Source of the DNA: Mycobacterium sp. EPa45
GTDB taxonomy: Bacteria > Actinomycetota > Actinomycetes > Mycobacteriales > Mycobacteriaceae
DNA: 64,000 nucleotides
NCBI RefSeq assembly: GCF_001021385.1
Contig: NZ_CP011773.1
Location: 1,984,001-2,048,000, forward strand
Direction of reading: 5' to 3'
Shown one piece after another: positions 8,716 to 42,496 of the stretch (its first letter is position 1; each line of letters opens with the position of its first letter). The notes below the pieces were generated by a model, which was not told the origin of the DNA, searched no databases, and saw only the letters and a list, made by a program, of their open reading frames with translations. A program made the translations under genes and the position numbers.

Positions 8716-8747
8716 TTGACGACATATACCTATAGGTGTAAGGTTTA
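8716..8747 (+). promoter_or_regulatory. mce operon promoter with operator site A
   Basis: TTGACG (8716-8721), a 17-base spacer and TAAGGT (8739-8744) form a good -35/-10 pair. The spacer holds the perfect 10-base palindrome ACCTATAGGT (8728-8737). The larger inverted repeat ATACCT-N9-AGGTTT (8726-8746) matches sites at 20379, 24342 and 24593. The -35, spacer length and -10 are identical to those ahead of the SDR/P450 operon. A repressor bound here would block RNA polymerase. Confidence 0.7.
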
Positions 8748-8873
8748 CGACGCTTGGTGGTGCAGGTCACATCTCGGCCACAAGCGCTGTGCCGCAGGCC
8801 CTTAACGCAGATGCGGGCAAGCGTAGATTTCGCTCGCACCGTCGATGCGAGAGAACCGGAAGGTGGGTTACGT

Positions 8874-9695
8874 TTGATCGTCGGACGTGACGCCGTGGTT
8901 TTGACGCGGGACACCAGCCGCTTGGCCAGGATCTCATCGGCGCCGGCTGCCAAGCCGTTCCGTGCGCTCGGTGGTTTCTTCGCGATGGCCCTGGACGTCC
9001 TGGTGTCGATACCGCGGCGACCATTCGCCTGGCGGGAATTCCTGGTCCAGTCGTGGTTCGTGGCCCGGGTATCGATGGTCCCGACGTTGATGTTGGCGAT
9101 TCCGTTCACGGTTCTGATGGTCTTCACCTTCAATATCCTGCTGGTGGAGTTCGGTGCCGCCGACTATTCGGGAACCGGAGCCGCCTACGGAACCGTGACC
9201 CAGATCGGACCTGTCGTAACGGTTTTGGTGGTCTCTGGCGCAGGTGCAACTGCTATGTGCGCCGATCTGGGCGCCCGGACCATTCGTGACGAACTCGACG
9301 CGTTGCGCGTCATGGGTGTGAACCCCATTCAAGCGTTGGTCGTGCCTCGGGTGCTAGCCGCAACCGTGGTCGCGACCCTGTTGTCATCGGTGGTCATCCT
9401 GGTAGGGCTGATCGGCAGCTTCGTCTTCGCCGTGTTCATCCAGCATGTGACCCCGGGCTCCTTCGTGGGTGGCCTAACCGTGATCACGAAGGCGCCCGAC
9501 GTGGTGATTTCGTTGATCAAGTCGACCTTGTTCGGAATGGCGGCCGGGTTGATCGCTTGCTACAAGGGGGTGTCGGTCGGTGGGGGACCGGCCGGCGTCG
9601 GCAACGCGGTCAACGAGACGGTCGTCTACACGTTCATGGCGCTCTTCGCGATCAACATCATCGCCACCGCGGTCGGCGTGAAAGCAACCCTATGA
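8874..9695 (+). CDS. yrbEA: YrbE-family permease A of mce operon
   Basis: MlaE-type inner-membrane permease of the Mce lipid ABC importer; first gene of the operon. It has about six membrane segments and the conserved core GAGATAMCADLGARTIRDELDALRVMGVNPI (EExDAL-like coupling region) and GGGPAGVGNAVNETVVYTF. The start is uncertain. TTG 8874 has GGAAGG at 8858-8863 and gives 273 residues, the normal YrbE length. TTG 8754 or GTG 8757, close to the predicted transcription start, would add about 40 residues. Its partners are the next gene and the MceA-F proteins; the ATPase (MceG/Mkl) is not in the window. Confidence 0.9.
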   Translation: MIVGRDAVVLTRDTSRLARISSAPAAKPFRALGGFFAMALDVLVSIPRRPFAWREFLVQSWFVARVSMVPTLMLAIPFTVLMVFTFNILLVEFGAADYSGTGAAYGTVTQIGPVVTVLVVSGAGATAMCADLGARTIRDELDALRVMGVNPIQALVVPRVLAATVVATLLSSVVILVGLIGSFVFAVFIQHVTPGSFVGGLTVITKAPDVVISLIKSTLFGMAAGLIACYKGVSVGGGPAGVGNAVNETVVYTFMALFAINIIATAVGVKATL

Positions 9696-10546
9696 GCAGC
9701 AGTGTGCCCAGCAAGGCTGGGTCGCAACTCCGGCATCTCATCGATGGTTGGATCGGCGGCCTCACGCGGATCGGGACGCAGGCGCAATTCTATTTCCGAA
9801 CGCTGGTCGCCACCCGGGATGCCGTCGTCCATTACAAAGTCGAGACGATCCGACTGATCGCCCAAATGAGCCTTGGCACAGGTGCTTTGGCGGTCATCGG
9901 CGGCACAGTGGTGATCGTCGGCTTCCTGACGCTGTCCACTGGAGCCCTGGTGGCGGTGCAGGGTTACAACCAATTCGCCAATGTCGGTGTCGAGGCGCTG
10001 ACCGGCTTCGCATCGGCATTTTTCAATGTCCGGCTCATTGCACCGGTGATCGCCGGAATCGCGTTGGCCGCCACCATCGGTGCCGGTGCCACCGCACAGC
10101 TGGGTGCGATGCGGATCAACGAAGAGATCGATGCACTTGAAGTGATGGGTGTGCGTGCAGTGGCCTACCTCGCGTCGAACCGGGTCTTGGCCGGCGTGGT
10201 GGTGGTGATCCCGCTGTACTGCGTCGCGATGATCACCGCTTTCCTGGCTGCGCGATTCGGCACGACCGTGGTCTACGGGCAGTCCAGCGGTGTCTACGAC
10301 CACTACTTCGGAACCTTCTTGAACCCGATCGACATCGTCTGGTCGTTTCTCCAGGCGATCTCGATGGCGATCGTGATCATGCTGGTACACACCTACTACG
10401 GCTTCACCGCTTCGGGAGGACCGGCCGGGGTCGGTGAGGCAGTCGGGCGAGCCGTGCGCACCTCGATGATCTCAGCGGTCTTCGTCGTCTTGTTCCTTTC
10501 GCTGGCCATCTACGGTCAGTCCGGCAACTTCCATTTGTCGGGATAA
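9692..10546 (+). CDS. yrbEB: YrbE-family permease B of mce operon
   Basis: 284 residues, ATG overlapping the previous stop in ATGA. Second permease subunit, paralogous to YrbEA: amphipathic N-terminal helix, LGTGALAVIGGTVVIVGF, the coupling motif GAGATAQLGAMRINEEIDALEVMGVRAVAYL, and GGPAGVGEAVGRAVRTSM at the C-terminus. With YrbEA it forms the transmembrane channel on which the Mce hexamer docks, and it moves hydrophobic substrates from the periplasm to the cytoplasm. The stop is immediately followed by the GTG of mceA. Confidence 0.92.
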   Translation: MSSSVPSKAGSQLRHLIDGWIGGLTRIGTQAQFYFRTLVATRDAVVHYKVETIRLIAQMSLGTGALAVIGGTVVIVGFLTLSTGALVAVQGYNQFANVGVEALTGFASAFFNVRLIAPVIAGIALAATIGAGATAQLGAMRINEEIDALEVMGVRAVAYLASNRVLAGVVVVIPLYCVAMITAFLAARFGTTVVYGQSSGVYDHYFGTFLNPIDIVWSFLQAISMAIVIMLVHTYYGFTASGGPAGVGEAVGRAVRTSMISAVFVVLFLSLAIYGQSGNFHLSG

Positions 10547-11923
10547 GTGATGTCATCGCGAAACGGTGCTCGCGGTGGCCACCCGCTGTGGTGGACGGCC
10601 GGTCTCTTCGGGGCCATCATCGGCATGGCTGGAGTGTGTTCGGCGTTGTTCGCCGGAACTTTTCGCACGTATGTACCGGTCACGCTGACATCTGATCGAA
10701 GTGGTCTGGTGATGGAGTCCGGTGCCAAAGTGAAGATGCGCGGCGTCGAGGTGGGGCGCGTGTCCGGCATCGTCGGCGGCAGTGGACCGGTCGCGCTGAA
10801 GCTGGAAATATCGCCGGACCAGATCGCCCACATTCCCGCCAATGTCGACGCTCAGATCAAGGCCACGACGGCGTTCGGAGCGAAGTTCGTCGACCTCGTC
10901 TACCCCGCAGACCCCAGCACGAAGCGCTTGGCCGCCGGTGCGGTGCTGCACTCGCGAAACGTGACAACAGAGGTCAACACGGTGTTCGACAGTCTCGTCG
11001 GGCTACTGCGCAAGATTGACGTCTCCAAAGTGAACTCCGTGCTCACCGCACTGGCCGATGGTGTTCGCGGCGAGGGTGATCTGATGGGACAGGCCATCAC
11101 CGATGCCAATCAAGTTCTGCTCGCGGTGAATCCCCGCATGGACACGGTGGCCGCGGACTGGCGTTCTTTCAAGGGCTTCAGCGACGCCTACAAAGCCGCG
11201 GCGCCCGACATTCTCGCCACCATGGATGCGGCCAGCACCACCAGCGAGACCATCACTGCGGACTCGAAGGACCTGGATGCACTGCTGCTCAACACAATCG
11301 GCTTGTCCAACAGTGGAATCGGCCTGCTTGCTCCGAATCGAGACAATGTCATCAAGAGCGTCAACGTCCTCGAGCCGACAACCGCTCTTCTGCTCAAATA
11401 CAACCCTGAATACACCTGCACCGTCCAAGGCGCCAAGATATTCCTGGACAAGGCCGGACAGTGGTTCGGGGGGAACGGACGCACGGTTTACCTGGATGCG
11501 GGCTTGGCGTTCGGGGACGACCTCTACCGCTACCCCGAGAACCTCCCACTGGTCGCCGCCAAGGGTGGCCCGGGCGGTAAGCCGGGATGCGGGTCACTGC
11601 CTGACGTCGCCAAGAACTTCCCAGTGCGCCAGCTGATCACGAACACCGGGTGGGGCACCGGCCTCGACTGGCGGCCCAATCCCGGTATAGGCCAAACCTG
11701 CTCGGTCGACTACTTCCCGGTCACCCGGGGAATCCCCGAAGCCCCTCACGTGGGGCAGTGCTTGCCCGGACCGGCGCCCGGCCCCCGTCCGCCCTATCCC
11801 GGCGGTCCTCCGTACGGAGCGCCGTGGTACGCGCCCGACGGCACACCCCTCTACCCGGGCTTGCCGCAGCCTCCCGCGGCGCCGCTGCAGACCAGCCCGG
11901 CGGCCACACCGCCCTCCCCGTAA
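10547..11923 (+). CDS. mceA: MCE family protein MceA
   Basis: 458 residues. N-terminal anchor (LWWTAGLFGAIIGMAGVCSALF, about 14-35), then the MCE/MlaD domain (TSDRSGLVMESGAKVKMRGVEVGRV, about 48-125), a helical region, and a Cys-containing C-terminal domain. A proline-rich tail (about 395-458) may reach the cell wall. The start is GTG 10547 or ATG 10550, directly after the previous stop. MceA-F are thought to make a hetero-hexameric periplasmic tube for lipids such as sterols and fatty acids. This copy cannot be assigned to the mce1 to mce4 types from sequence alone; its catabolic neighbours suggest a non-standard substrate. Confidence 0.92.
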   Translation: MMSSRNGARGGHPLWWTAGLFGAIIGMAGVCSALFAGTFRTYVPVTLTSDRSGLVMESGAKVKMRGVEVGRVSGIVGGSGPVALKLEISPDQIAHIPANVDAQIKATTAFGAKFVDLVYPADPSTKRLAAGAVLHSRNVTTEVNTVFDSLVGLLRKIDVSKVNSVLTALADGVRGEGDLMGQAITDANQVLLAVNPRMDTVAADWRSFKGFSDAYKAAAPDILATMDAASTTSETITADSKDLDALLLNTIGLSNSGIGLLAPNRDNVIKSVNVLEPTTALLLKYNPEYTCTVQGAKIFLDKAGQWFGGNGRTVYLDAGLAFGDDLYRYPENLPLVAAKGGPGGKPGCGSLPDVAKNFPVRQLITNTGWGTGLDWRPNPGIGQTCSVDYFPVTRGIPEAPHVGQCLPGPAPGPRPPYPGGPPYGAPWYAPDGTPLYPGLPQPPAAPLQTSPAATPPSP

Positions 11924-11948
11924 CAGTGATGAGCGAGGAGCATCCATC

Positions 11949-12977
11949 GTGAACACCAATGTGCGCCGTGCCGCGATCAGTTTCGCGATCTTCGTAATCG
12001 TCTGTCTGATCGGGACGTTTGCACTGCTGGCCGTCTTCTCTCAGTTCCGGTTCTCCCGAGAGCAGGTTTACCGCGCAGAGTTCACCGATGTCAGCGGGTT
12101 GACCACCGGTGACTTTGTCCGGATTGCCGGCGTCGAGGTCGGCAAGGTGAAGAGAATCTCGATCACTGACAATGCACTGGCTTTGGTGGAGTTCTCCGCG
12201 GACCCTACGGTCTTCCTGACTAAGGGAACCAAGGCCGCGGTACGGTGGGAAAACCCGATCGGGGACCGGTACCTTGCCCTGTTGGAGGGCGCAGGCCGAG
12301 CTGAGCGCCTCGATCCGGGCGGAACGATAGCCGTCGCCAACACCATGCCGGCGTTGGATCTCGACACGCTATTGGGCGGCTTCCGGCCGTTGTTCCGGTC
12401 TCTGGATCCAGAGCAGGTGAACGCACTGTCGTCTCAGCTCATCGCCGCCTTTCAGGATCAGGGTGCTTCGATCGGGTCGTTCCTGAACCAAACAGCCTCA
12501 GTCACCAGCACTCTCGCCGATCGAGACGAACTGATCGGCCAGGTCATCACCAATCTCAACACCGTGACGGCATCACTGAGCGGGCAAAGCGGACAGTTCG
12601 CCAAGGCAATCGACTCGCTCGCCCAACTCGTGCACGGGCTGGCGACGCACAAACAAGACATTACCAACGCCGTCGCCTACACCAATGCGGCGACCGGTAC
12701 GATCGCCGATCTGTTAGATCAGACCCGTGCGCCGATGAAAGATGTTGTGACGCAGACGGACCGAGTGAGCTCCATCGTCGACGCCGATCATGACTGGTTC
12801 GACAACTTCCTGGAAACCGTTCCGCATTCCTACAAGGTCCTCAGCCGGCTCGGCATCATGGGTGATTTCTTTACGTTCTATCTCTGTGACCTGATTCTGA
12901 AAGTCAATGGCAAAGGTGGCGAACCGGTTTACGTCAAACTGGCCGGCCAGGACACCGGACGGTGCGCGCCGAAATGA
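11949..12977 (+). CDS. mceB: MCE family protein MceB
   Basis: 342 residues from a GTG preceded by GAGGAG. One membrane anchor (ISFAIFVIVCLIGTFALLAVF), then the MCE domain (YRAEFTDVSGLTTGDFVRIAG, VEVGKVKRI, ENPIGDRYLALLEG) and a long helical section (about 150-290) that would line the tube. Cysteines near the C-terminus (YLCDLILK, DTGRCAPK) are typical of MceB. Part of the hexamer with MceA and MceC-F. Confidence 0.92.
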   Translation: MNTNVRRAAISFAIFVIVCLIGTFALLAVFSQFRFSREQVYRAEFTDVSGLTTGDFVRIAGVEVGKVKRISITDNALALVEFSADPTVFLTKGTKAAVRWENPIGDRYLALLEGAGRAERLDPGGTIAVANTMPALDLDTLLGGFRPLFRSLDPEQVNALSSQLIAAFQDQGASIGSFLNQTASVTSTLADRDELIGQVITNLNTVTASLSGQSGQFAKAIDSLAQLVHGLATHKQDITNAVAYTNAATGTIADLLDQTRAPMKDVVTQTDRVSSIVDADHDWFDNFLETVPHSYKVLSRLGIMGDFFTFYLCDLILKVNGKGGEPVYVKLAGQDTGRCAPK

Positions 12978-14230
12978 AGTCCTTCGCTGAGCGCAATCTG
13001 TTCCTCACCGGCGTGGTCGGTGCAGCGACGATCGCTGCAATGGTGGGCGCCGCTCTCGAGTACGACAAACTGCCGTTCGTCGATTCCTCGAGGGAGTACA
13101 CCGCCTATTTCGCCGACTCGGGTGGGTTGCGGCCCGGGGCCGCCGTGCAGGTGGCCGGCTATCGGGTAGGAGAGGTCTCGTCGGTTGACCTTCGCGGCGC
13201 CGAAGTAGTAGTGACGTTCGACGTCGACGACGGCATTCGTCTCGGGCAGCAGAGCGAGGCAAATATCAGGACCAAGAGCCTGCTGGGCGCGAAGGTCCTC
13301 GAGATCACTCCGCGTGGCGATGGTCAACTGGCACAGCCGATTCCGCTAGCACGGACAAAGTCGCCCTACCAGTTGCCCGACGCACTCGGGGATCTTTCGG
13401 CCACCATCAACGGACTCAACACCGAATCGGTCTCCAATGCCCTGGCCACCTTGGCCGATACTTTCAAGGACACACCCACGGCTCTCCGGCAGGCAGTACA
13501 GGGGGTCGGACAATTCTCTCAGACACTCGACGCTCGAGATGCTGCCCTGCGCAACCTGCTCGCCGATGCCAACAAGGCGACCGGGGTGTTGTCCGAGCGC
13601 GCCGATGAGATCGCGAAGCTGGTCGTGGACAGCGATGCCCTGCTGGCCGAATTGCGAACACAGAGTGATGCTTTGGAACAGATCTCCGGTAACCTGTCGA
13701 ACCTGGCCGGACAGTTGGCCGGATTCATCGCCGACAACAAGACCCAGTTGCGGCCGACGCTGGACAAACTCAATTCCGTTCTCGCGACTGTCGATAACCG
13801 CAAGGCCGGTCTGCAGCAGGCGATCAAGTACCTCAATCAGTACGCCATGTCGTTGGGTGAAAGCGTCGCCTCCGGACCCTTCTTCAAGGCGTATATCGCA
13901 AACCTGCTCCCTGGCCAATTCGTTCAGCCGTTCGTCGATGCGGCCTTCTCCGACCTCGGCTTGGATCCGAATGTGCTGTTGCCGTCTCAACGCACTGACC
14001 CGCAGATCGGGCAACCGGCCACCCCGCCGCTGCCGGTGCCGTTCCCACGTACCGGCCAGGGCGGCCAGCCCAACCTCAATCTGCCCGACGCGATCACCGG
14101 AAACCCCGGCGACCCCCGCTATCCATACCGAGAACCACTTCCCGGTCCACCACCCGGCGGGCCGCCGCCAGGCCCGCCTGCGGCACTCCCGTCCGCTCAG
14201 CCGGCCCCGGTCGAAGGGGGCCAGGGATGA
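12974..14230 (+). CDS. mceC: MCE family protein MceC
   Basis: 418 residues from ATG 12974, which overlaps the mceB stop in ATGA; an in-frame GTG at 12962 is less likely. Anchor LFLTGVVGAATIAAMVGAAL, MCE domain (YTAYFADSGGLRPGAAVQVAG, RVGEVSSVDL, KSLLGAKVLEI), helical stretch, then a proline/glycine-rich tail (about 345-418). The tail resembles that of MceA and may be extracellular. Structural subunit of the lipid-transport tube. Confidence 0.92.
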   Translation: MKSFAERNLFLTGVVGAATIAAMVGAALEYDKLPFVDSSREYTAYFADSGGLRPGAAVQVAGYRVGEVSSVDLRGAEVVVTFDVDDGIRLGQQSEANIRTKSLLGAKVLEITPRGDGQLAQPIPLARTKSPYQLPDALGDLSATINGLNTESVSNALATLADTFKDTPTALRQAVQGVGQFSQTLDARDAALRNLLADANKATGVLSERADEIAKLVVDSDALLAELRTQSDALEQISGNLSNLAGQLAGFIADNKTQLRPTLDKLNSVLATVDNRKAGLQQAIKYLNQYAMSLGESVASGPFFKAYIANLLPGQFVQPFVDAAFSDLGLDPNVLLPSQRTDPQIGQPATPPLPVPFPRTGQGGQPNLNLPDAITGNPGDPRYPYREPLPGPPPGGPPPGPPAALPSAQPAPVEGGQG

Positions 14231-15489
14231 CGTCACGCTTCATGCGCACCGGCATAGCCCTCGTCCTGCTGGTGACCCTGGCCGCTGCCGTCCTCGTCCA
14301 GATCCGCAATCACGAGGCCGTACGGCGACTGCATGTCGTCGCCTACTTCGACAACAGCAACGGGCTGTTCACCGGCGACGAGGTGCGCATACTCGGGGTT
14401 CCGGTGGGACGGATCGACGGCATCGAGCCCGAGCCGCAGCGGGTCAGGATCAGCTTTTCCATCGATCCGAGATACCAAGTGCCTGCAGACGCCAAGGCCG
14501 CGATCATCTCACCGCAATTGGTCACCTCCAGAGCTATTCAACTCACACCGGCCTATACGGGCGGTCCGGCTATGCACGACGGTGCGGTGATCCCGCAATC
14601 GCGCACCGTCGTGCCTCTGGAGTGGGACGATCTGCGCCAGCAGTTGGTGAAGTTGACCGACGCCCTGCAGCCGACGCAGCCCGGCGGCGTGAGCACCCTC
14701 GGTGCGATCATCGATACCGCGGCGGACAATCTACGGGGTCAGGGGCCGAGCATCCGCGACACCGTCATCAAGATGTCCCAAGCCTTTTCCATCCTCGGTG
14801 ACCGCAGCGATGACATGTTCTCCACCATCAGAAACCTCTCCGTCGTGGTTACAGCCCTGCAGGACAGTTCGGCGCTGCTGGTGCAGTTCAACCAGAACCT
14901 TGCCGCCGTTACCGCTGCGCTGAGCGCGTCCCCGGCCGCGATGGGTAAGGCGGTGAAGGATCTCAACGACGTCGTCGGTGACACCACGAAATTCATCAGC
15001 GATAACCGCGAGGCCATCGGTACAACGACCGACAAGTTGGCGTCCATCACCACTGCGGTACACGACAGTCTTGACGACGTCGAGCAAGCGCTGCACCTGT
15101 TCCCGAACACCCTGCAGAACTTCATCAACATCTACCAACCGACTCAGCAGGGGATCACCGGCGTACTGACGATGCAGAACTTCGCCAACCCAATCTCGTT
15201 CCTGTGCGGGGGAATTCAGGCGGCCTCCCGGCTCAACAGTGAGCAATCGGCCAAGTTGTGCGTGCAATATCTCGCTCCCATCATCAAGAATCGGCAGTTC
15301 AACTTTCCGCCGCTGGGCGCGAACTATGTTGTCGGAGAGTCAGCCAGGCCGAACGAACTCACCTACTCCGAAGATCGGCTGCGACCCGACCACCGGCCCA
15401 CCATGGCGCCGGCGGAGGGCCAGGCGGCACCGACAGACCCCGCTGCCGGCCTGTCCGGGATGATGGTTCCCCCGGGAGCTGGGTCGTGA
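14227..15489 (+). CDS. mceD: MCE family protein MceD
   Basis: 420 residues, ATGA overlap with mceC. Anchor TGIALVLLVTLAAAVLVQI, MCE domain (VVAYFDNSNGLFTGDEVRILG, VPVGRIDGIEP, PQLVTSRAIQLTPAYTGGP), helical region, and a C-terminal section with two cysteines (FLCGGIQ, AKLCVQYL). Same role as its neighbours in the Mce complex. Confidence 0.92.
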   Translation: MTSRFMRTGIALVLLVTLAAAVLVQIRNHEAVRRLHVVAYFDNSNGLFTGDEVRILGVPVGRIDGIEPEPQRVRISFSIDPRYQVPADAKAAIISPQLVTSRAIQLTPAYTGGPAMHDGAVIPQSRTVVPLEWDDLRQQLVKLTDALQPTQPGGVSTLGAIIDTAADNLRGQGPSIRDTVIKMSQAFSILGDRSDDMFSTIRNLSVVVTALQDSSALLVQFNQNLAAVTAALSASPAAMGKAVKDLNDVVGDTTKFISDNREAIGTTTDKLASITTAVHDSLDDVEQALHLFPNTLQNFINIYQPTQQGITGVLTMQNFANPISFLCGGIQAASRLNSEQSAKLCVQYLAPIIKNRQFNFPPLGANYVVGESARPNELTYSEDRLRPDHRPTMAPAEGQAAPTDPAAGLSGMMVPPGAGS

Positions 15490-16634: not shown

Positions 16635-16635
16635 G

Positions 16636-18069
16636 ATGCATCTGAGCAAGTGGATCAAGCTGCAACTCTGCATTTTTGCGATCGTCACGGTGGTTGCCGG
16701 CGCGGTCATGGTGTTCGGTTACATCGACGTCCCGGCCATGCTGGGTGTCGGGAGATATACAGTCACGATGCAACTTCCGCAAACAGGCGGGCTGTATGAG
16801 GGCGCCAATGTGACATACCGCGGGACGGAGGTCGGCCGGGTCAGCGCCGTGACACTGACGGAGTCCGGAATTGATGCGAAGCTGTCGCTGCGGTCCGACC
16901 TGCGCATCCCGTCGGACGTGGATGCGCAGGTGCACAGCACATCCGCGATCGGTGAGCAATACGTCGCGCTGATACCTCGCATTGGGGGGACTCCGCCACT
17001 AAAGAACGGTGATGTCATCGACACGAACCGGACGTCGGTACCGCCGGACATCGGTGAACTGCTTGACGCGGCGAACCGCGGGTTGGAGGCCATACCGCGC
17101 GAGAACGTGAGAACTGTGATCGACGAAAGCTACTCGGCCATAGGAGGTTTGGGACCCGAACTGTCGCGCATCGTGAAGGGATCCACAAAGCTGGCGATCG
17201 ACGCTCACGACAACCTCGATCCATTGGTGTCACTGATCGACCATTCCGGGCCGGTCCTGGATTCGCAAGCACAATCCGCAGGCGCCATCCACGCGTGGGC
17301 CGCTCACCTGGCCGACCTGTCCAGTCAGCTCAAAGACAACGACCGGTCTCTTGCCGGACTTCTGAAGAGCGGCGCACAGGCGGCCGATCAAGCAGGCCAA
17401 CTGATGGATCGACTTCGTCCGAGCCTGCCGGTTCTGATGGCCAACCTCGCCGGCATCGGCCAGCTCGCGCTGACGTATCAGCCCGCGATCGAACAGTTGC
17501 TGGTGTTGATACCCATGGGGGTCCAGGTGATGGCGGCCGGGACGGTGGCCAACCGAGACAGCCAACATCCGGGATTGGTGTTGTCGTTCAATCTCAACCT
17601 CAATCTCCCGCCACCATGCACCACAGGCTATCTGCCTGCCCAACAGCAGCGGATTCCCTCCATGGTCGATACACCTGACCGAACGGCCGATGATCTGTAT
17701 TGCCGCATACCCCAGGACTCTTGGGTGGCGGTCCGTGGAGCGCGCAATCTGCCGTGCCTGACCAACCCGGGGAAGCGGGCGCCGACAGCGAGAATGTGCC
17801 GAAGTGACGAGCAATACGTACCACTCAACGACGGGTTCAACTGGAAGGGTGATCCGAACGGAACGCTGAGCGGTCAAAGCATTCCCCAGCCGCCGCCGGA
17901 TTCGGCGCAGCAGGTGCCCGTAGGGCAGGCTCCGCCGATCGCCGTTGCCTACTACGATCCCACGACCGGTAATTATGTCGGACCAGATGGCCTGAACTAC
18001 ACCCAGTCAGATCTGGTCGCGCACAGCGGACCTCGAACATGGCAGAGCATGCTCGTCCCGACCCCGTGA
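16636..18069 (+). CDS. mceF: MCE family protein MceF
   Basis: 477 residues from ATG 16636, one base after the mceE stop. Anchor LQLCIFAIVTVVAGAVMVFGY, MCE domain (YTVTMQLPQTGGLYEGANVTY, TEVGRVSAV, TSAIGEQYVALIP), helical section, and a C-terminal part with several cysteines (NLPPPCTTGYL, LYCRIP, RNLPCLT, ARMCRSD). Last gene of the operon. No mam/mas accessory genes follow; the next gene is convergent. Confidence 0.92.
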   Translation: MHLSKWIKLQLCIFAIVTVVAGAVMVFGYIDVPAMLGVGRYTVTMQLPQTGGLYEGANVTYRGTEVGRVSAVTLTESGIDAKLSLRSDLRIPSDVDAQVHSTSAIGEQYVALIPRIGGTPPLKNGDVIDTNRTSVPPDIGELLDAANRGLEAIPRENVRTVIDESYSAIGGLGPELSRIVKGSTKLAIDAHDNLDPLVSLIDHSGPVLDSQAQSAGAIHAWAAHLADLSSQLKDNDRSLAGLLKSGAQAADQAGQLMDRLRPSLPVLMANLAGIGQLALTYQPAIEQLLVLIPMGVQVMAAGTVANRDSQHPGLVLSFNLNLNLPPPCTTGYLPAQQQRIPSMVDTPDRTADDLYCRIPQDSWVAVRGARNLPCLTNPGKRAPTARMCRSDEQYVPLNDGFNWKGDPNGTLSGQSIPQPPPDSAQQVPVGQAPPIAVAYYDPTTGNYVGPDGLNYTQSDLVAHSGPRTWQSMLVPTP

Positions 18070-18089
18070 ACCGGATCAGGAACAGGCGG

Positions 18090-18743
18090 TCAGGCCGATG
18101 TCTCTTCGGCGCCTCGCCGGTAGGCGTCGTTCGCCGTAACACCGTAAAGGAAGCTCCGGATTCGTTCGGCGAACACCTCTTTCACCGTCAGATCGTTGAC
18201 TTTGATCGCCTCGGCGAGGTGAGGATATTTCTCGGCATCGAATGGGGGAAACAGAACGTTCCGTCCGCGGGGCATCCGGACCGCCTCGGACAGAACGGCG
18301 CCCACGCAGAGTGTCTCCATCCCGTCCAGGATCTGCGCGTGCAGGTGGACGGGTACACCTGATTCGGTGAGGAAGCGGGCGGCGTCTTCGAAGCTGCCGA
18401 TGAGCGTCTCGCGCGGGAGATGCTCGATCAGGATCGACGCCGCGTTGCGGTGGCGCAGCACGGACTGCCGGAAATTCAGTGCGAGACTGACGAAGTACTC
18501 CGGCCAGTCCGGTCCTGGCGCGCGCCGCGGTTTGATGACCGATTTGCCGGCGATATGACGAGCGACCGCAATCAAAATCTCGTTCTTGTCGGCAAAGTGG
18601 TGGTAGAGCGACGGGGCTCGCACCCCGAGGTGCGCGGCGAGGCGAGGCAAACTGAATGCGTTGAGTCCCTCGGAATCGATGATCTCGATTGACGCCTCGA
18701 CTGCGGCGGCACGGCTGATCAGCGGCTTGGATGGTCGCGGCAT
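18090..18743 (-). CDS. TetR family regulator of the mce/catabolic locus (proposed)
   Basis: 217 residues. N-terminal helix-turn-helix (about 10-55: AVEASIEIIDSEGLNAFSL, PRLAAHLGVRAPSLYHHFAD) and a long C-terminal ligand domain of the TetR_C_1 kind. It is the last gene of the minus-strand arm (CaiB, ALDH, ALDH, TetR), convergent with mceF, and the only regulator inside 8.7-32.3 kb. It is therefore the natural candidate to bind the four shared inverted repeats and respond to the imported compound or its CoA ester. That link is inferred from position only. A perfect palindrome GGTGATCACC lies 74 bases upstream. Confidence 0.88.
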   Translation of the reverse strand: MPRPSKPLISRAAAVEASIEIIDSEGLNAFSLPRLAAHLGVRAPSLYHHFADKNEILIAVARHIAGKSVIKPRRAPGPDWPEYFVSLALNFRQSVLRHRNAASILIEHLPRETLIGSFEDAARFLTESGVPVHLHAQILDGMETLCVGAVLSEAVRMPRGRNVLFPPFDAEKYPHLAEAIKVNDLTVKEVFAERIRSFLYGVTANDAYRRGAEETSA

Positions 18744-18816
18744 GTCAGCGCGCCCCGAATCCGCGGGCAGACCGCGGAGTCCCTCGTCGCATGTGGGTCA
18801 CTATACCGAGCGCAGG

Positions 18817-18826
18817 GGTGATCACC
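18817..18826. promoter_or_regulatory. Palindrome GGTGATCACC upstream of TetR gene
   Basis: A perfect 10-base palindrome that overlaps the stop codon of the upstream aldehyde dehydrogenase gene. It is flanked by TATACC (18802-18807) and GGTATC (18829-18834), which are themselves nearly inverted. It could be a second, separate operator for the TetR gene; it does not fit the four-site motif. Confidence 0.3.
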
Positions 18827-20348
18827 GTGGTATCTTGCCCGTCCTGGCCAGGCGGCGCCGCCAGTCATGCGCGCCGAGGAGGCGGACGGCACGTGCAATC
18901 AGACGCGCACGTGCCGGAACGACTGGATACCAAAGTGGCTCAGACTTCATCGCGATCCGCTCCTCGACCACCGACTGCTGCCGGCAATACTTGAGCACGC
19001 CTTGTGCCCCGCCGAAACGGGTACCGAGACCGGAATTCTTCCAGCCGCCCATCGGTAGTGGCAGTTGGAAAGTCGCGACAAGCGCGTTGTTGATCGAGAC
19101 CGATCCAGCCTCGATCCGACGCGACAATCTGTCGGCCTTTGCTCGGTCCCGGGTCCAAATGCTGGAGCTCAGACCATATTCGGAGTCGTTGGCCAAGGCG
19201 ATCGCTTCGTCGGCGTCGGCTACCCGCATGACAGCCACGGTCGGCCCGAATGTCTCCTCCCGCATACAGCGCATGGTGTGGTCGACATCAACCAGAACTG
19301 TCGGCTCGAAGCAGTTGCCCTGCCGCCGTTTGCCTCCCACCACAACGCGGGCACCTTTGGCGACCGCGTCCTCGACGTGCTCTGCGACGATGTCCAATTG
19401 GGTGGCGGTCACCATGGCGCCGATATCGGAAGAAAAGCTGCCGGGAGCGTCCATGCCCTGGCGAAGTGCGCTCACCTTGCGGGTGAGCAGTGACACGAAC
19501 TCTTCGTAGACCGGTGTTTCGACGTAGATCCGTTCGACACCGATACACGCTTGACCGGAGTTCGTCATCGCACCCCACACCGCGCCGGCGGCCGCGCGTT
19601 CGAGATCGGCATCAGCCAGGACGATACATGCGTCCTTGCCGCCGAGCTCGAGGCTGCACGGGATCAACCGTTCGGCACAGCGCACGGCGATCGCCCGGCC
19701 GGTGCGTACCGAGCCGGTGAACATGATCATGTCGGCTTGATCCACCACCGCAGCTCCGGTGGCGCCGCCGCCGTTGGCGACCGCGAGAATTGGGGGAGCC
19801 CCAATTTCCTCGCGCCAGCCGCGAACCGCTTCCGTCCACGTCAGCGGAGTGACCTCGGAGGGCTTGCACACCACTGCGGCACCAGCGACCAAGGCGCCGA
19901 CCACGTCCATCATCGGACCCGCCAGCGGACCGTTCCATGGCGTGATCAGTCCCACGAGTTGATGTGGCCGGACCTGAACCCGCAATCTGCGCAGCGCGTT
20001 CGCCGGACCCGCCGGCTTGACGCGCCGGTCCGCCAGGAATTGTTCGGCGTGCTTGGTGTAGTAGTTGATCACGTCGACGGCTACCGACATCTCGAGTGAG
20101 GCGTCCGCCCACGACTTGCCGGTCTCCTGTTGAATCAACCTCAGCAGGCGTTGCTCGTTGTCGAGTAACCAATCAAGCCAGCGCAGCAAGTGAGCACCTC
20201 GGCCGCGCGGACCCATCTCCTCCCATGCCGGTTGGGCCTCGCGCAGCTCCGCGCAGAGGGCAGCGACCTGCTCCGCGTCGACATCGGGGACGTCGCCGAT
20301 CGCCGTGCCGTCGGTAGGGCGCCGCACAGTGATCATCGGCCCAGGCAT
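18822..20348 (-). CDS. Aldehyde dehydrogenase family protein (ALDH1 of locus)
   Basis: 508 residues from ATG 20348. Catalytic residues are all visible: Asn139 in TPWNG, Lys162 in CKPSEVTP, Glu234 in LELGGKDAC, and nucleophile Cys268 in NSGQACIG. The C-terminus carries a basic extension of about 40 residues (LIARAVRLLGAHDWRRRLAR). It oxidises an aldehyde to an acid with NAD(P)+. Operator site C lies 31 bases upstream, overlapping the end of the second ALDH gene, so this gene may have its own promoter within the operon. Likely step: converting an aldehyde made by the P450 or aldolase into the acid used by the ligase or CoA-transferase. Confidence 0.92.
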   Translation of the reverse strand: MPGPMITVRRPTDGTAIGDVPDVDAEQVAALCAELREAQPAWEEMGPRGRGAHLLRWLDWLLDNEQRLLRLIQQETGKSWADASLEMSVAVDVINYYTKHAEQFLADRRVKPAGPANALRRLRVQVRPHQLVGLITPWNGPLAGPMMDVVGALVAGAAVVCKPSEVTPLTWTEAVRGWREEIGAPPILAVANGGGATGAAVVDQADMIMFTGSVRTGRAIAVRCAERLIPCSLELGGKDACIVLADADLERAAAGAVWGAMTNSGQACIGVERIYVETPVYEEFVSLLTRKVSALRQGMDAPGSFSSDIGAMVTATQLDIVAEHVEDAVAKGARVVVGGKRRQGNCFEPTVLVDVDHTMRCMREETFGPTVAVMRVADADEAIALANDSEYGLSSSIWTRDRAKADRLSRRIEAGSVSINNALVATFQLPLPMGGWKNSGLGTRFGGAQGVLKYCRQQSVVEERIAMKSEPLWYPVVPARARLIARAVRLLGAHDWRRRLARTGKIPR

Positions 20349-20378
20349 GAGCGCTCCGTTGCTTTCGTCTTTAGCGGA

Positions 20379-20399
20379 TAATCTAACATCGTAAGATTT
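20379..20399. promoter_or_regulatory. Operator site C upstream of ALDH1
   Basis: TAATCT-N9-AGATTT; the inner five bases AATCT/AGATT form a perfect inverted repeat with the same nine-base spacing as sites A, B and D. The spacer also ends in CGTA, as in site B (site A ends GTGTA). It overlaps the stop codon of ALDH2. No clear -35/-10 pair is visible for the minus strand, so its promoter role is less certain than at A and B. Confidence 0.5.
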
Positions 20400-21882
20400 A
20401 CAGACTCTGTGGCGCAATGGCTGCGGCCGTCCCTCCGCCGGCCGGACCCACACGATAGATGGACTTGAGCACCTGGTAGGCCGCTAATCCTTCGGGTCCC
20501 AACTCACGGCCCAGGCCGCTGGCCTTCACGCCTCCGAACGGTGACCGGATGTCGAGTTGGTAGTCATTGACTCCCACCGACCCGGTGCGGATGGCGCGGG
20601 CAATGTTGGTCGCGCGTTCGGAATCCTTCGACCACACCGTTCCTGCCAGTCCGAAGTCGGAGTCGTTGGCAATCGCGATGGCTTCCTCATCGTCGCGATA
20701 GGGGATGAGGACCACGACGGGCCCGAAGATCTCCTCCTGCGCGAGGCGGTCCGCATTGCCGACTTCGGCGAATACGGTGGGTGCCACGAACCATCCGCGA
20801 GGATGATCCCGCGGGGCCTTGCCTCCGGCCACGAGTTTGGCGCCGCCGGCGATCCCCGCTGTTATGTAGCCGAGCACGCGATCTCGCTGTGCCGCGCTGA
20901 CCAATGGGCCCACCTCGGTGCAGTCGTCCAGTGGATCGCCGACGATCAGATTGTCGGCGAGTGCGGCGATGGCATCGACGAATTCGCCGTAGCGGGAATG
21001 TGGTACCAGTATCCGCGAGCTCAGATGACAGGTCTGTCCGTTGTTGGCAAACGACGCCGAACGTAGCCCGGCGATGGTGAGGTCCGCATCGGCGTCGTCG
21101 AGGATGACAGCCGCGGACTTGCCCCCGAGTTCGAGGGTGACCGGCCGAATGAGCTGCCCGCACGCCGCGCCGATGGCACGCCCGGCCGTTGTGGATCCCG
21201 TGAATGCCACCTTGTCGACGCCCGGGTGGCTCACCAGGTGTGCACCCGCAGCCGCATCGCCGGGTACCACGCTGAGTACGCCAGGCGGGAGGCCGACCGC
21301 CATGGCAGCCTCCGCGAAAACGAGAGCGTCCAAGGCGGTTTCGAGCGCAGGCTTGAGTACCACGCGGCAGCCGGCGGCGAGCGCGGGTGCCAACTTCATC
21401 ACTGCCAGGGCCTGCGGGTAGTTCCACGGCGTGATGGCGGCAACGACTCCGACCGGTTCTCGCCGGACGATCGTGTGACCGATGAGCGCGGGTCGGATCT
21501 CCTCGACTTCGTTGTTGGCAACGAGCTTCGCGTAATAGCCGACCAACGCCGACGGAAACGCGCCGTTGGCGCCCCGGGACAGAGAGATCGGCATGCCGTT
21601 CTCACGGCTGACCAAGGTTGCGGTGGTGGAGGCGCGGGCCCCGAGAGCAGCGGCGAAACGCCTCAGGATGTCCACACGCTCGGCGGGCTCGGTGGCCGAC
21701 CACGCTCGTGCCTGGGGGCCGTGAGCGGCGGCGACTGCGTCATCGATGTCCTTCGTGTCCGCACAGCCGGCGGTGCCCAGCACTTCTTCGGTCGCTGCCT
21801 CGAACACCGGAGCGGCGGCACTCGCCGGCCGCAACTTCCCTCCGACGAACAGCGTCCCGGTGGTGAAATCGGCGGTCATCAT
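20398..21882 (-). CDS. Aldehyde dehydrogenase family protein (ALDH2 of locus)
   Basis: 494 residues from ATG 21882, which overlaps the CaiB stop in ATGA. Catalytic set: Asn154 in TPWNYPQ, Lys177 in LKPALET, Glu251 in LELGGKSAA, Cys285 in NNGQTCHL. It is clearly different in sequence from the neighbouring ALDH1, so the two probably act on different aldehydes or with different cofactors rather than being a recent duplication. Co-transcribed with the CoA-transferase. Confidence 0.92.
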   Translation of the reverse strand: MMTADFTTGTLFVGGKLRPASAAAPVFEAATEEVLGTAGCADTKDIDDAVAAAHGPQARAWSATEPAERVDILRRFAAALGARASTTATLVSRENGMPISLSRGANGAFPSALVGYYAKLVANNEVEEIRPALIGHTIVRREPVGVVAAITPWNYPQALAVMKLAPALAAGCRVVLKPALETALDALVFAEAAMAVGLPPGVLSVVPGDAAAGAHLVSHPGVDKVAFTGSTTAGRAIGAACGQLIRPVTLELGGKSAAVILDDADADLTIAGLRSASFANNGQTCHLSSRILVPHSRYGEFVDAIAALADNLIVGDPLDDCTEVGPLVSAAQRDRVLGYITAGIAGGAKLVAGGKAPRDHPRGWFVAPTVFAEVGNADRLAQEEIFGPVVVLIPYRDDEEAIAIANDSDFGLAGTVWSKDSERATNIARAIRTGSVGVNDYQLDIRSPFGGVKASGLGRELGPEGLAAYQVLKSIYRVGPAGGGTAAAIAPQSL

Positions 21883-24284
21883 TGATGTCCTTCAGTCGTC
21901 GGTGCGGCGTACAAGACACCGCCTTCGATGAGTTGCTCGACGGCATCGGGGCTCAGCGACAGCATCTTTCGGGCCACCTCTCGGGTGTGCTCGCCGAGCA
22001 GCGGCGCCGGTCGGAGCTCCGCTGCCGCGATATGGCGGTACACCGCGGGCCGAGTCTCGGTGGGCAGTGCGACGTCTAACAGCGGATGTTGCATCTCGAC
22101 GTAAAGCCCGCGGTGGCAGACCTGTGGATCGGTGAGCACGTCTGCGCCCCGATACATCGGCCCCGCCGGCACGCCGATCTCCTGAAGCTTCCTGGCGGTG
22201 TCCAGAGGTGACCGTGCGCGGGTGTAAGCGCTCACGATCTCGCGGAGCTCGCGGCGCGCCGCCCATCGGCCGGCCGCGGTGGTGAATCGGGGATCGTCGG
22301 CCAGCTCGTCCTGCCCGAGTGCCGTTGCGATGGCGGGCCAGTCGGCCTCTGGGCCGATCGTAACCGCACACCATTCGTCATCGCCCTGGCATGGGTACAC
22401 GCCGTGCACGCTGGAATCGCCCCCGACCGGTGCGCCGGCCTGCTGCCCCCACAGCGATGCGTACAGGACGTCGAGCTGACTGACCGCGGTCTCAGCTTGT
22501 GAGAGGTGAATGTGGGCGCCGACCGCCGCACGGTCTCTTCTGATGAGTGCGGCCAGCGTCGCGATGGCGGCCAGGCGGGCGACGAGATGGTCGGGGAAAA
22601 CTGTTACGGCATCGTGGAACTGGTGCCATGTATCCGAATCTGAGAGTTCATCTCGCCAGAGGTGGCTGATGCCGGTAGACGAGCGCACCAGCGGTCCGTA
22701 CCCCATCCGTGTGCTCCACGGACCGGTGTCCCCGTAGGCGCTGCTCTCGGTCAGGACGATCCGCGGGTTGAACCGCTGAAGCGTGCTGTACGACAGGCCG
22801 AGAGACGCGAGTGTTCCCGGCTTGAAATTGGCGAATACTGCGTCGGCCTGGCTGACGAGCTCACCGAAAAGCGCAGTCCCGCAGTCGGTGCGCAAGTCGA
22901 CGCCGAATGCGGCCTGGTTGCGGTGGGTCCACGCGAATGATTCGCTGATCGACTGACCTGGCCTGCCCTGCCGCAAGCCATCGGGATAAGAGGGACTTTC
23001 GACTTTGATCACATCGGCGCCCAGGTCACTGAAGAGTCGCCCCAGCTCGCCACCGGCGACGATGACACCAAGATCGAGAATGGTGAGGCCGCTCAGGGGT
23101 CGGCCGCCGGTGGTTTCGGTCAGCACGGGGGTGGGCCCGGTGAGCCATGCGGCCTCGCTGCTGCCCGCTGCGGGTGCCGGCCACCGGATCCCGGCGCGGT
23201 GGCCATCGATCACGATGCAACCGTTCGGAACCGTGAGCCCAGTCGCGTCGTCGAGGTCGACCGTTGTCCATGCGCCGGTGGCCTCAAAGTGGTCTGCGCA
23301 CAACACTTCACGCGGCGGCAGAACCGCGGCGATTGGTATTCCGCGTTCAGTGCCCGACGCGACCAACTGCGCCATGGTGCGGGAACGGAAAAGCGTGGCG
23401 ATGGCGGCACCGATTCGGTCGAAGGCGGCCGCCCGGGCGGCGATCGTGTCGAAGCGCGGGTCGAGAAACTCGGCGGGCTCACCCAGCCACGCCCGCATGG
23501 CCCGCCATTGGCGGGGGGCGAGGATACAGATGCGTACCCACCCGTCCCGGCAGGCGAAGATCGGGTAGGAGTCCTGGCCGTTGGGGCGGCCGCGCCTCGG
23601 ATTGTTGATTCCTCGAGCCACTGCGGCTTGGCCGTGGGAGCCGAACGGGGGGTCCAATGCCTGGAGGACCCCTTCGTATCGTGAGAAGTCGACATGATCA
23701 CCGCGTCCGCTGTGGATGCGGTGATAGTGAGCGACCAGAACGGCCCAGGCGGCCTGAGCGGCGGCGGTCGCCGACGCGATGCCGTCCGGTGGCAGGACCG
23801 GCGCTCCACCCGGCGGACCGGATCGCGACAACACCGATGACATCGCATACAGCACCGGGTCGGAGGCCGTCCAGCCCGCCAGTGGGCCAGCCGTGCCGAA
23901 GTCGGTGATGATCATGGTGACCACGTGTGGGTACCGGTCCGCGAGCTCGGCGCACGATGTACCGAATAGCGCTGCTTGACCGGGGATTCCACTGTCCATG
24001 ACGATGTCGGCGCTCGCGACCTGATCGAAGAATCGTGAGCGGTCACCGCGGACGTCGCCGTCGAGAACGACGCTGCGCTTGTTGGCATTGCGGAGTGTGA
24101 AGGGCAGGCTCTGCGTTCCGATGGATGGTGATTCACGCCGCGATGGTGAGCCGCCCGGGGGTTCGACCATGAGGACGTCCGCGCCGAGATCGGCGAGGAT
24201 GCGCGCGGTTTGAGCTGCGGGCCCGACGGTGAGGTCGAGAACCCGCACGCCGCTCAGTGGAGAGTCGGACATCAGCACGCCCAT
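21879..24284 (-). CDS. Tandem CaiB/BaiF (family III) CoA-transferase
   Basis: 801 residues, twice the usual length, with two full family III CoA-transferase domains (about 8-380 and 395-800). Each opens with the Rossmann motif (LSGVRVLDLTVGPAAQT; LSGLTILDLGVIVAGGE) and has ADLGADVLMVEPP or SDLGADVIKVESP. The position of the catalytic Asp is D142 in the first half (ASDPVLYAMSS). The second half has Gly530 (MGYGPLVRSST) there, so only one half may be catalytic, a single-chain version of the interlocked dimer. It would move CoA onto the imported or oxidised acid, or act as a racemase. ATG 24272 is an alternative start. Confidence 0.9.
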   Translation of the reverse strand: MGVLMSDSPLSGVRVLDLTVGPAAQTARILADLGADVLMVEPPGGSPSRRESPSIGTQSLPFTLRNANKRSVVLDGDVRGDRSRFFDQVASADIVMDSGIPGQAALFGTSCAELADRYPHVVTMIITDFGTAGPLAGWTASDPVLYAMSSVLSRSGPPGGAPVLPPDGIASATAAAQAAWAVLVAHYHRIHSGRGDHVDFSRYEGVLQALDPPFGSHGQAAVARGINNPRRGRPNGQDSYPIFACRDGWVRICILAPRQWRAMRAWLGEPAEFLDPRFDTIAARAAAFDRIGAAIATLFRSRTMAQLVASGTERGIPIAAVLPPREVLCADHFEATGAWTTVDLDDATGLTVPNGCIVIDGHRAGIRWPAPAAGSSEAAWLTGPTPVLTETTGGRPLSGLTILDLGVIVAGGELGRLFSDLGADVIKVESPSYPDGLRQGRPGQSISESFAWTHRNQAAFGVDLRTDCGTALFGELVSQADAVFANFKPGTLASLGLSYSTLQRFNPRIVLTESSAYGDTGPWSTRMGYGPLVRSSTGISHLWRDELSDSDTWHQFHDAVTVFPDHLVARLAAIATLAALIRRDRAAVGAHIHLSQAETAVSQLDVLYASLWGQQAGAPVGGDSSVHGVYPCQGDDEWCAVTIGPEADWPAIATALGQDELADDPRFTTAAGRWAARRELREIVSAYTRARSPLDTARKLQEIGVPAGPMYRGADVLTDPQVCHRGLYVEMQHPLLDVALPTETRPAVYRHIAAAELRPAPLLGEHTREVARKMLSLSPDAVEQLIEGGVLYAAPTTEGHQ

Positions 24285-24341
24285 CGTCCTTCCTCGATCT
24301 GGACTGCGCCGTCAGGTTACGAAGACGGTGCAACATCCGCA

Positions 24342-24362
24342 ATACCTAATGGCTATAGTTTT
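24342..24362. promoter_or_regulatory. Operator site D between CaiB and ferredoxin genes
   Basis: ATACCT-N9-AGTTTT, same half-sites and nine-base spacing as A, B and C. On the plus strand a good -10 TATAGT (24354-24359) lies inside it, 37 bases ahead of the ferredoxin start. Being in the divergent gap, it could control both the minus arm (CaiB, ALDHs, TetR) and the plus arm. Confidence 0.6.
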
Positions 24363-24395
24363 ACTAACTGTGTCGAGCGAAGGAATTGGCGGCTG

Positions 24396-24596
24396 ATGAA
24401 AATCCGTTTGATCGGTTCGAAGTGCGCGGGGCATGCGCGGTGCTACGCCGTCTCGCCCGACCTGTTTCCCATCGACGACGAGGGCTTTTGCATGCTCGAA
24501 GAACGAACGGTTCACCCCGACGAGGTCGCCGCCGCGCAGGCCGGTGCGGCTGCCTGTCCAGAGCTGGCACTTGTCATCGAGGAAGGCGACGATTGA
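24396..24596 (+). CDS. 3Fe-4S type ferredoxin with CxxHxxC cluster motif
   Basis: 66 residues. Cluster ligands C10, C16 and C54 (CAGHARC and AACPEL). The second ligand position is His13 rather than Cys, a variation seen in P450-partner ferredoxins of mycobacteria. It would pass electrons to the cytochrome P450 encoded two genes downstream, and possibly to the Rieske oxygenase. No ferredoxin reductase gene is present in the window. The start follows GAAGGAATT. The SDR promoter overlaps the stop codon of this gene. Confidence 0.9.
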   Translation: MKIRLIGSKCAGHARCYAVSPDLFPIDDEGFCMLEERTVHPDEVAAAQAGAAACPELALVIEEGDD

Positions 24597-24622
24597 CGCG
24601 ATAAACCTACAGGCGTAAGGTT
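24593..24622 (+). promoter_or_regulatory. SDR/P450 operon promoter with operator site B
   Basis: TTGACG (24593-24598), 17-base spacer, TAAGGT (24616-24621): the same architecture as the mce promoter. The perfect repeat AAACCT-N9-AGGTTT (24603-24623) spans spacer and -10. The predicted transcript starts near 24628 and has a 40-base leader with GAGGAGAAAC before the SDR ATG. Confidence 0.7.
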
Positions 24623-24667
24623 TCACGAACTGTTGCAGGTCACGGGATCCTGAGTGCGAGGAGAAAC

Positions 24668-25534: not shown

Positions 25535-25563
25535 CACCACGACACTTTGAGGAGACCGCTGAG

Positions 25564-26793: not shown

Positions 26794-26800
26794 GGCGGCC

Positions 26801-27976: not shown

Positions 27977-27981
27977 GCGCG

Positions 27982-30745: not shown

Positions 30746-30772
30746 CCGGAAGTCACAGGATCGAGGAGGACG

Positions 30773-40946: not shown

Positions 40947-40993
40947 AGCTGTCTCCGATCTGGCTGCCGGATCACCGTTGACCGGCACTTGTT

Positions 40994-41029
40994 CCGTAGT
41001 GATCGATACGGTAGTGTAGTGATCACTAC
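40994..41029. promoter_or_regulatory. Double palindromic operator between hydroxylase and TetR genes
   Basis: Site 1: CCGTA-N8-TACGG (40994-41011). Site 2: GTAGTGATCACTAC (41016-41029), a perfect 14-base palindrome. Site 1 starts with CCGTAGTGATC, which is the exact reverse complement of the end of site 2 plus flank (GATCACTACGG). Both lie in the divergent gap, so the TetR at 41052 probably binds here. Confidence 0.65.
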
Positions 41030-41051
41030 GGAGTCAAGGAGTGCGGAGAAA

Positions 41052-42391: not shown

Positions 42392-42420
42392 GGGCAGATA
42401 GTAGCAGCAGAGCTCATTAC

Positions 42421-42478
42421 TGAGGATTTCGTCAGAAACCTTGACTGAGGATCCTCTCGTAAGTGATGATTTCGTCAG
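42421..42478. promoter_or_regulatory. Direct repeats and palindrome between TetR and dioxygenase genes
   Basis: TGAGGATTTCGTCAG (42421-42435) recurs as TGATGATTTCGTCAG (42464-42478), 14 of 15 bases, 43 bases apart or about four helical turns. Between them is the palindrome GAGGATCCTC (42447-42456). Probable multi-site TetR operator. Confidence 0.6.
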
Positions 42479-42496
42479 TTGAGGAGAGGAGGCGAA

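Follow-up and report, generated by a model that had tools for sequence, protein, structure and literature searches.

The stretch of Mycobacterium sp. EPa45 DNA analysed here (64,000 nucleotides of contig NZ_CP011773.1, hereafter the window) carries a set of yrbE/mce importer genes, a gene for a TetR-family regulator and a cluster of predicted catabolic genes (Table 1). Along this locus lie four palindromic sites, S1 to S4, which an earlier note on the same DNA had described as copies of the inverted repeat AACCT-N9-AGGTT and had proposed to be operators of the local TetR. All four 21-mers (ATACCTATAGGTGTAAGGTTT, TAATCTAACATCGTAAGATTT, ATACCTAATGGCTATAGTTTT and AAACCTACAGGCGTAAGGTTT, respectively) were located where that note had placed them, and in each of them nine bases separate the five-base half-sites. 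The half-sites themselves, however, which it had called matching, are exact only in S4, with one mismatch in S1 and two each in S2 and S3. The sites do precede mceYrbE, the aldehyde dehydrogenase gene ALDH1, the divergent CaiB/ferredoxin pair and the short-chain dehydrogenase/reductase (SDR) operon, as had been claimed, and they fall outside the main genes, save for a two-base overlap of S2 with the stop codon of a second aldehyde dehydrogenase gene, ALDH2.

Table 1. Features of the locus, in window coordinates; operator and promoter assignments are predictions.
Feature	Position	Strand	Context or basis
-35 box TTGACG, mce promoter	8716..8721	+	TTGAC in 4/6 mce promoters
Operator S1	8726..8746	.	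before yrbE/mce operon; matrix score, and yrbEA-front sites in 5/9 ortholog genomes
-10 box TAAGGT, mce promoter	8739..8744	+	inside S1; putative
yrbE/mce importer genes	8754..18069	+	start codon of first gene uncertain
Crp-like box GGTGG-N6-TCACA	8756..8771	+	just downstream of S1; GTG-N7-TCAC in 4/6 mce promoters
TetR-family regulator, proposed repressor	18090..18743	-	TetR_N and TetR_C_1; phmmer match to class D TetR
ALDH1	18822..20348	-	upstream of tetR, 78-base gap, probably co-transcribed
Operator S2	20379..20399	.	before ALDH1, hence before the ALDH1-tetR unit; ALDH1-front equivalents in 8/9 ortholog genomes
Likely -10 TACGAT, ALDH1 promoter	20388..20393	-	inside S2; TANNNT there in 7/9 ALDH1 promoters, by eye; putative
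ALDH2	20398..21882	-	
Likely -35 TTGCGC, ALDH1 promoter	20412..20417	-	CATTGCG in 7/9 ALDH1 promoters, by eye; putative
Two-domain CaiB-type CoA (coenzyme A) transferase	21879..24284	-	
Operator S3	24342..24362	.	between CaiB (-) and ferredoxin (+); ferredoxin-front equivalents in 7/9 ortholog genomes
Likely -10 TATAGT, ferredoxin promoter	24354..24359	+	inside S3; putative, no clear -35
Ferredoxin	24396..24596	+	
-35 box TTGACG, SDR promoter	24593..24598	+	TTGACN-N17-TAAGGT in 9/9 SDR promoters
Operator S4	24603..24623	.	before SDR-P450-Rieske-thiolase-ligase operon; SDR-front equivalents in 8/9 ortholog genomes
-10 box TAAGGT, SDR promoter	24616..24621	+	inside S4; putative, from consensus
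Weaker Crp-like box ACTGT-N6-TCACG	24629..24644	+	downstream of S4; RTCACR in 9/9 SDR promoters
SDR, P450, Rieske oxygenase, MshD-like, DUF35, Ltp2-like thiolase-fold, AMP-ligase	24668..32296	+	probably a single operon, from spacing
Two further TetR-type regulators	40320-41693, 41729-43480	+, -	23 kb from TetR

The bare ten-base pattern is only mildly informative. The window has 14 places that fit AACCT-N9-AGGTT with up to two mismatches, where 8.3 would be expected, and 4 of 100 shuffles yield as many; with at most one mismatch, the whole genome has 30 places against 23 in a backward control. As a search motif it was too weak alone, and a 21-base matrix was used instead. When this matrix was trained on three of the sites, the left-out sites scored 24.8, 15.3, 21.0 and 24.8, and of the 63,980 window positions only the three training sites ever ranked above the left-out one; the top score elsewhere in the window was 12.0 to 13.0, and ten Markov shuffles peaked at 14.0. 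As full 21-mers, the four window sites are genuine. Because they had been picked by eye, the independent test lies in other genomes. Three of the four window sites share a rightward extension of the motif (TTTAC), but it was discarded, since by eye it is not retained in the flanks of the relatives' sites. A de novo count of exact palindromes was dominated by GC-rich words and recovered only the AACCA-N9-TGGTT of a distant group (see below), not the main motif.

Matches to the TetR at E ≤ 1e-20 were found in 24 of 148 genomes of the genus, namely the window's own, nine in which the protein is an ortholog (73-89% identity) and 14 in which the closest homolog reaches 34-50%. Scanned with a matrix built from the window sites only, the 352,678 bases around the nine orthologs hold 39 sites of at least 17 bits, where five shuffles each gave none and reversal of the sequence gave 2 (throughout, matrix matches below 15 bits were mostly left uninterpreted). 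The sites occur in eight of the nine genomes, always outside the homologs of the 18 window genes that were looked for, and they stand in front of ALDH1 in eight genomes, SDR in eight, ferredoxin in seven and yrbEA in five (two sites each). The same genes are preceded by sites despite rearrangement of ALDH2, the SDR operon and mce, and in relatives where ALDH2 stands apart it, too, is preceded by one. Identity across nine SDR promoters is 96% in the half-sites; it falls to 45% over the 40 bases on the upstream side and to 29% over the 60 on the downstream side. The consensus derived from these relatives is AAACCTW-N7-WAGGTTT.

Within the 6.18-Mb genome of the strain itself, the strict pattern AAAYCTW-N7-TAGRTWW occurs at three places, all in this locus (S3 is missed), and a 41-site profile at E ≤ 10 likewise picks out three places, none outside the locus (S2 is missed). 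The profile derives from an alignment, A1, of the four window sites and 37 of the 39 ortholog sites of at least 17 bits, in both orientations, with L053:142 and L057:3483 left out. Across the 148 genus genomes it matches nine at E ≤ 1, all of them among the 24 with a TetR homolog; the filters of this search were stricter and cost it weak matches. Training sites had come from eight of the nine, so that the independent part of the result is the absence of matches elsewhere together with G045, whose profile site lies 63 kb from its 50%-identical TetR homolog.

A motif search over related genomes had been put forward in the earlier note as a check on its proposal, and in broader samples, too, the sites concentrate at TetR loci. 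A scan of named species covered 55 loci, of which 38 (L079-L116, apparently overlapping in part with the genomes of the ortholog set) contain relatives of the TetR (55-93% identity) from Mycobacterium/Mycolicibacterium, Gordonia, Rhodococcus, Nocardia and Aeromicrobium. Their 737,363 bases hold 104 sites of at least 17 bits, with one or more in 33 of the 38 loci and a single site in the reversed sequence; the remaining 17 unrelated loci also give one. When the strict pattern and the TetR (E ≤ 1e-35) were both searched in 401 genomes of the family, 48 had both, 10 the pattern only, 10 the TetR only and 333 neither. Pattern places in TetR genomes lie mostly close to the TetR (86 of 92 within 50 kb, 72 of 92 within 20 kb), and the 11 in TetR-less genomes are at chance level (the backward control gave 14 strand hits in all 401). 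Six of the ten TetR-only genomes do have a matrix site of at least 17 bits near the TetR.

Which regulator reads the sites? The TetR of the locus combines a TetR_N helix-turn-helix (PF00440, 40.5 bits against a cut-off of 24) with a C-terminal ligand-binding domain (PF02909 TetR_C_1, 26.5 bits against a cut-off of 21), and phmmer aligns it at near full length with the class D tetracycline repressor TetR (E 2.6e-17, residues 9-199, 191 residues). Members of this family have palindromic operators near their own or adjacent genes, and the four conserved sites, as putative binding sites, answer to that description. That it is the only regulator in the interval, as the earlier note had it, agrees with our Pfam scan of the main open reading frames (ORFs) between 8.7 and 24.6 kb (overlapping minor ORFs aside), which revealed no other. 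The two further TetR-type genes at 41-42 kb were rejected as site binders, since at E ≤ 1e-20 one is missing from four of nine site-bearing genomes (G018, G027, G068, G099) and the other from two (G027, G068), so that G027 and G068 keep their sites with neither gene. Nor was a close copy of either seen at 56 loci, a view limited to 20 kb, whereas the genes lie 23 kb from the TetR. They adjoin an apparent second catabolic cluster, with an FAA hydrolase, FAD monooxygenases and an MFS transporter.

More distant relatives of the TetR bear on the same question. In front of paralogs of 45-51% identity (L064, L065, L066), a similar palindrome stands 50-122 bases ahead of the start, scoring only 15.5 bits in L066. 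In four TetR homologs of 32-35% identity, the recognition helix differs (GVNGASLYHHF versus GVRAPSLYHHF; rows L018, L019, L020, L022, L031 and L033 were left out of this comparison), and AACCA-N9-TGGTT is present in all four of their loci, which are partly alike and in which the word had been seen before it was counted. That palindrome and recognition helix change together suggests that the TetR reads the motif. With conservation in eight of nine ortholog genomes and 33 of 38 named loci and co-occurrence in 401 genomes, comparative genomics strongly supports the proposal that the sites are operators of the local TetR, and we consider it highly probable that this protein would bind all four, repressing the Mce importer, the catabolic cluster and, through the ALDH1-tetR unit, itself. 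Elsewhere, four loci of another genus (L141, L144, L145, L146) carry TetR homologs of about 53% identity near AMP-ligase homologs, together with intermediate palindromes such as AAACCATACGCCATTAGTTTT.

The partial likeness and prior inspection of the four variant loci weigh against this assignment, as do several other observations. The TetR of G133 is 73% identical to that of the window, yet nothing above 8 bits lies near it, and G225, G318 and G498 likewise have the TetR but no 17-bit site near it. G486 and G514 were counted among the genomes with both, but their pattern lies away from the TetR, with nothing of 13 bits nearby. Five of the 38 named loci are without a 17-bit site (one locus is only 5.6 kb long). 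No site of 15 bits accompanies the mce clusters that neighbor the TetR in G018 and G043, and G043, although an ortholog and training genome, was missed by the profile at E ≤ 1. Finally, the strict pattern had been tuned on the relatives' sites and the genomes are related, so that the Fisher p of 5e-42 for the co-occurrence in 401 genomes is too small.

In G133 (L062:19440-19640), the TetR gene adjoins ALDH2, no Rieske match was found, and the other cluster genes are absent within about 20 kb; this TetR is perhaps an orphan regulator. At 59-71% identity, the mce clusters of G018 and G043 (L046, L048) represent a more distant type, which gives the impression that the importer has been swapped.

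A different regulator, encoded elsewhere and co-inherited with the cluster, might bind the sites while the TetR regulates something else. Here, too, there is evidence that counts against our assignment: 46 of the 401 genomes carry the cluster's Rieske gene, and because the TetR is present in all of them, a second regulator inherited with the cluster would be compatible with the pattern of occurrence; some TetR homologs, moreover, have no site nearby. We nevertheless regard this explanation as unlikely. The main ORFs of the interval include no other regulator, and the TetR-type genes at 41-42 kb fail in the site-bearing genomes already named. A Rieske homolog is absent from 12 of the 58 TetR genomes, six of which (G227, G240, G302, G353, G410, G437) retain a site of at least 17 bits around the TetR. 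The sites before the paralogs in L064, L065 and L066, and the joint change of palindrome and recognition helix in the most distant group, also tie the motif to the TetR. The Rieske homolog of G418 (C1:3707132-3708337) has four in-frame stops in the matched stretch and may be degraded.

How the sites would act can be judged from the promoters, whose assignment rests on consensus and was partly made by eye. All nine SDR promoters (window and eight relatives) carry TTGAC(G/C)-N17-TAAGGT with the TAAGGT inside the operator; four of six mce promoters carry TTGAC ahead of TAAGGT, the spacer being 17 bases for the window and L052 and 18 bases for the other two of the four, and the remaining two (G039, G068) are arranged differently, with two operators 36-37 bases apart. 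In seven of nine ALDH1 promoters, a -10-like hexamer also falls within the operator, in another register than in SDR and mce; the ferredoxin and CaiB promoters are less clear than these three. Since the operator covers the -10 of the SDR promoters, steric repression is likely, RNA polymerase probably being occluded by a protein sitting on the -10 and the spacer. With 78 bases between them, tetR comes after ALDH1 on the same strand; it lacks a site of its own, and S2 would therefore control tetR too; in L086, L092 and L094, extra weaker sites (16-20 bits) lie between ALDH1 and tetR.

In the mechanism that we favor, a TetR dimer would, without inducer, bind AAACCTW-N7-WAGGTTT and, by covering the -10 box together with some of the spacer, would keep RNA polymerase off the promoters. 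The mce importer, CaiB-ALDH2, ferredoxin and the SDR-P450-Rieske-thiolase-ligase operon would thereby be shut, and so would the ALDH1-tetR unit, which would amount to autoregulation. The signal that frees the DNA of TetR would be a pathway metabolite, for which a CoA ester or an aldehyde derived from a steroid- or isoprenoid-like lipid is a plausible candidate.

Some TetR-family members act as activators, and the TetR could bind these same sites as an activator or dual regulator. This we think quite improbable, because an operator on the -10 and spacer in the SDR and most mce promoters suits occlusion, as argued for kstR (PMC1995591). It is also conceivable that the motif is no operator at all but a promoter element, recognized by an alternative sigma factor, given that TAAGGT or TATAGT in the site doubles as a -10 and TTGAC lies 17-18 bases upstream in the SDR and most mce promoters. 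However, both halves of the palindrome are conserved, the ALDH1 -10 lies in another register, all five second sites before mce are without TTGAC, and outside TetR genomes the pattern is near chance level, so that a sigma factor element is very improbable. Chance similarity selected by eye, which the mild enrichment of the bare ten-base pattern might have suggested, is refuted by the leave-one-out ranks and by conservation in other genomes and deserves practically no credence.

The gene content gives some indication of what the proposed repressor might guard. The SDR is near the mycofactocin-coupled subfamily (below that model's cut-off), the P450 has as its closest PDB match a reconstructed CYP125 ancestor, and the Rieske oxygenase has as its top PDB match carnitine monooxygenase, with no pointer to sterols. 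The thiolase-fold protein (29555-30745) matches 6ok1_A at E 4.4e-54 and the DUF35 protein (28836-29582) matches 6ok1_B at E 7.4e-11; the closest solved relative of the pair is the Ltp2-ChsH2(DUF35) complex, and a thiolase-fold lipid-transfer protein beside a DUF35 protein is the arrangement of the steroid side-chain aldolase pair of the Ltp2/ChsH2 type, an activity that is putative here. An acyl-CoA ligase (the AMP-ligase) is encoded in the same run. Together with the Mce importer, this gene content suggests that a steroid- or isoprenoid-like lipid, as the predicted substrate class, is taken up and then broken down by side-chain-type degradation.

A second box lies just downstream of S1 and S4. 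GTG-N7-TCAC stands 8-11 bases past the operator in eight of nine SDR promoters (that of the window has GTCACG only) and in four of six mce promoters, against 0 of 29 other site contexts and a background of 0.29% of random 40-mers. The E. coli CRP site is TGTGA-N6-TCACA, and the M. tuberculosis motif resembles it (PMC4117774); in the comparison with this site, the right half is conserved and the left half is GGTGG or similar. The box GGTGG-N6-TCACA resembles the E. coli site, though with a degenerate left half, and as a putative Crp site it may link the regulon to cyclic AMP.

The lipid-catabolic genes controlled by KstR include mce4. Like KstR (Rv3574), the TetR of this locus would be a mycobacterial TetR-family repressor with palindromic operators at lipid-catabolic promoters, overlap with the -10 (partial, in KstR's own promoter) and autoregulation (PMC1995591). 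Unlike it, the present TetR would act on AAACCTW-N7-WAGGTTT at one locus of the genome, whereas the KstR operator is TnnAACnnGTTnnA, with a two-base centre, and its predicted regulon comprises 83 or 74 genes (PMC1995591). Compared by eye with this motif, none of the four 21-mers has its AAC-N2-GTT core, and all differ from it, which bears out the earlier note's remark that the KstR operator looks different. Mce3R is similarly a local TetR-type repressor of an mce operon (PMC2277422, PMC4482099). However, mce3R is divergent from mce3, and its motif is described as larger, more complex and multi-copy, without a classical palindrome (PMC4482099); here tetR is convergent with the mce genes at their far end, the sites are simple palindromes, and a catabolic cluster is covered too. 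The class D tetracycline repressor TetR belongs to the same family and has the same domain pair, but the operator of the model TetR is a 15-bp palindrome (PMC4482099), and that proposed here spans 21 bp with a wider centre.

Catabolic clusters guarded by a TetR that has palindromic operators are a known kind of system, and this operator and regulon were not met in the literature searched. No description of either was found in titles and abstract beginnings of open-licence PMC texts, and a search for TAGGTTT with TetR gave only unrelated papers among the matches listed. The operator might overlap with one of the 11 putative motifs of PMC4482099, although that study took regulators that are divergent from their neighbors and conserved among mycobacteria; M. 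tuberculosis is named in none of the 38 records L079-L116. In the predicted arrangement, a single regulator whose operator is defined would govern both an Mce importer and an oxidation cluster, and the substrate could therefore be sought with a simple reporter or a screen for TetR-releasing ligands. One tentative, and on balance doubtful, extension is that an undescribed clade of catabolic TetR repressors is spread across the Mycobacteriaceae, each guarding its own steroid- or isoprenoid-like lipid cluster (here with a Mce importer). Its 21-bp operator would drift stepwise (half-sites AAACCTA, AAACCATA and TAACCAAAC) with changes in the recognition helix, making a natural TetR specificity code readable, and the SDR and mce promoters would each have two gates, TetR on the -10 and, immediately downstream, a Crp-type protein. 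A series of TetR/operator pairs that can be read from genomes may be possible.

Two of the relatives' loci are more elaborate. In G098, one mce cluster shares a one-site upstream region with ALDH2, and the other mce cluster is without a site in the stretch examined. The locus of G039 encodes a second TetR (54% identical; L057:4006-4614), with the site L057:3483 about 500 bases before it and, further on, a second mceF homolog.

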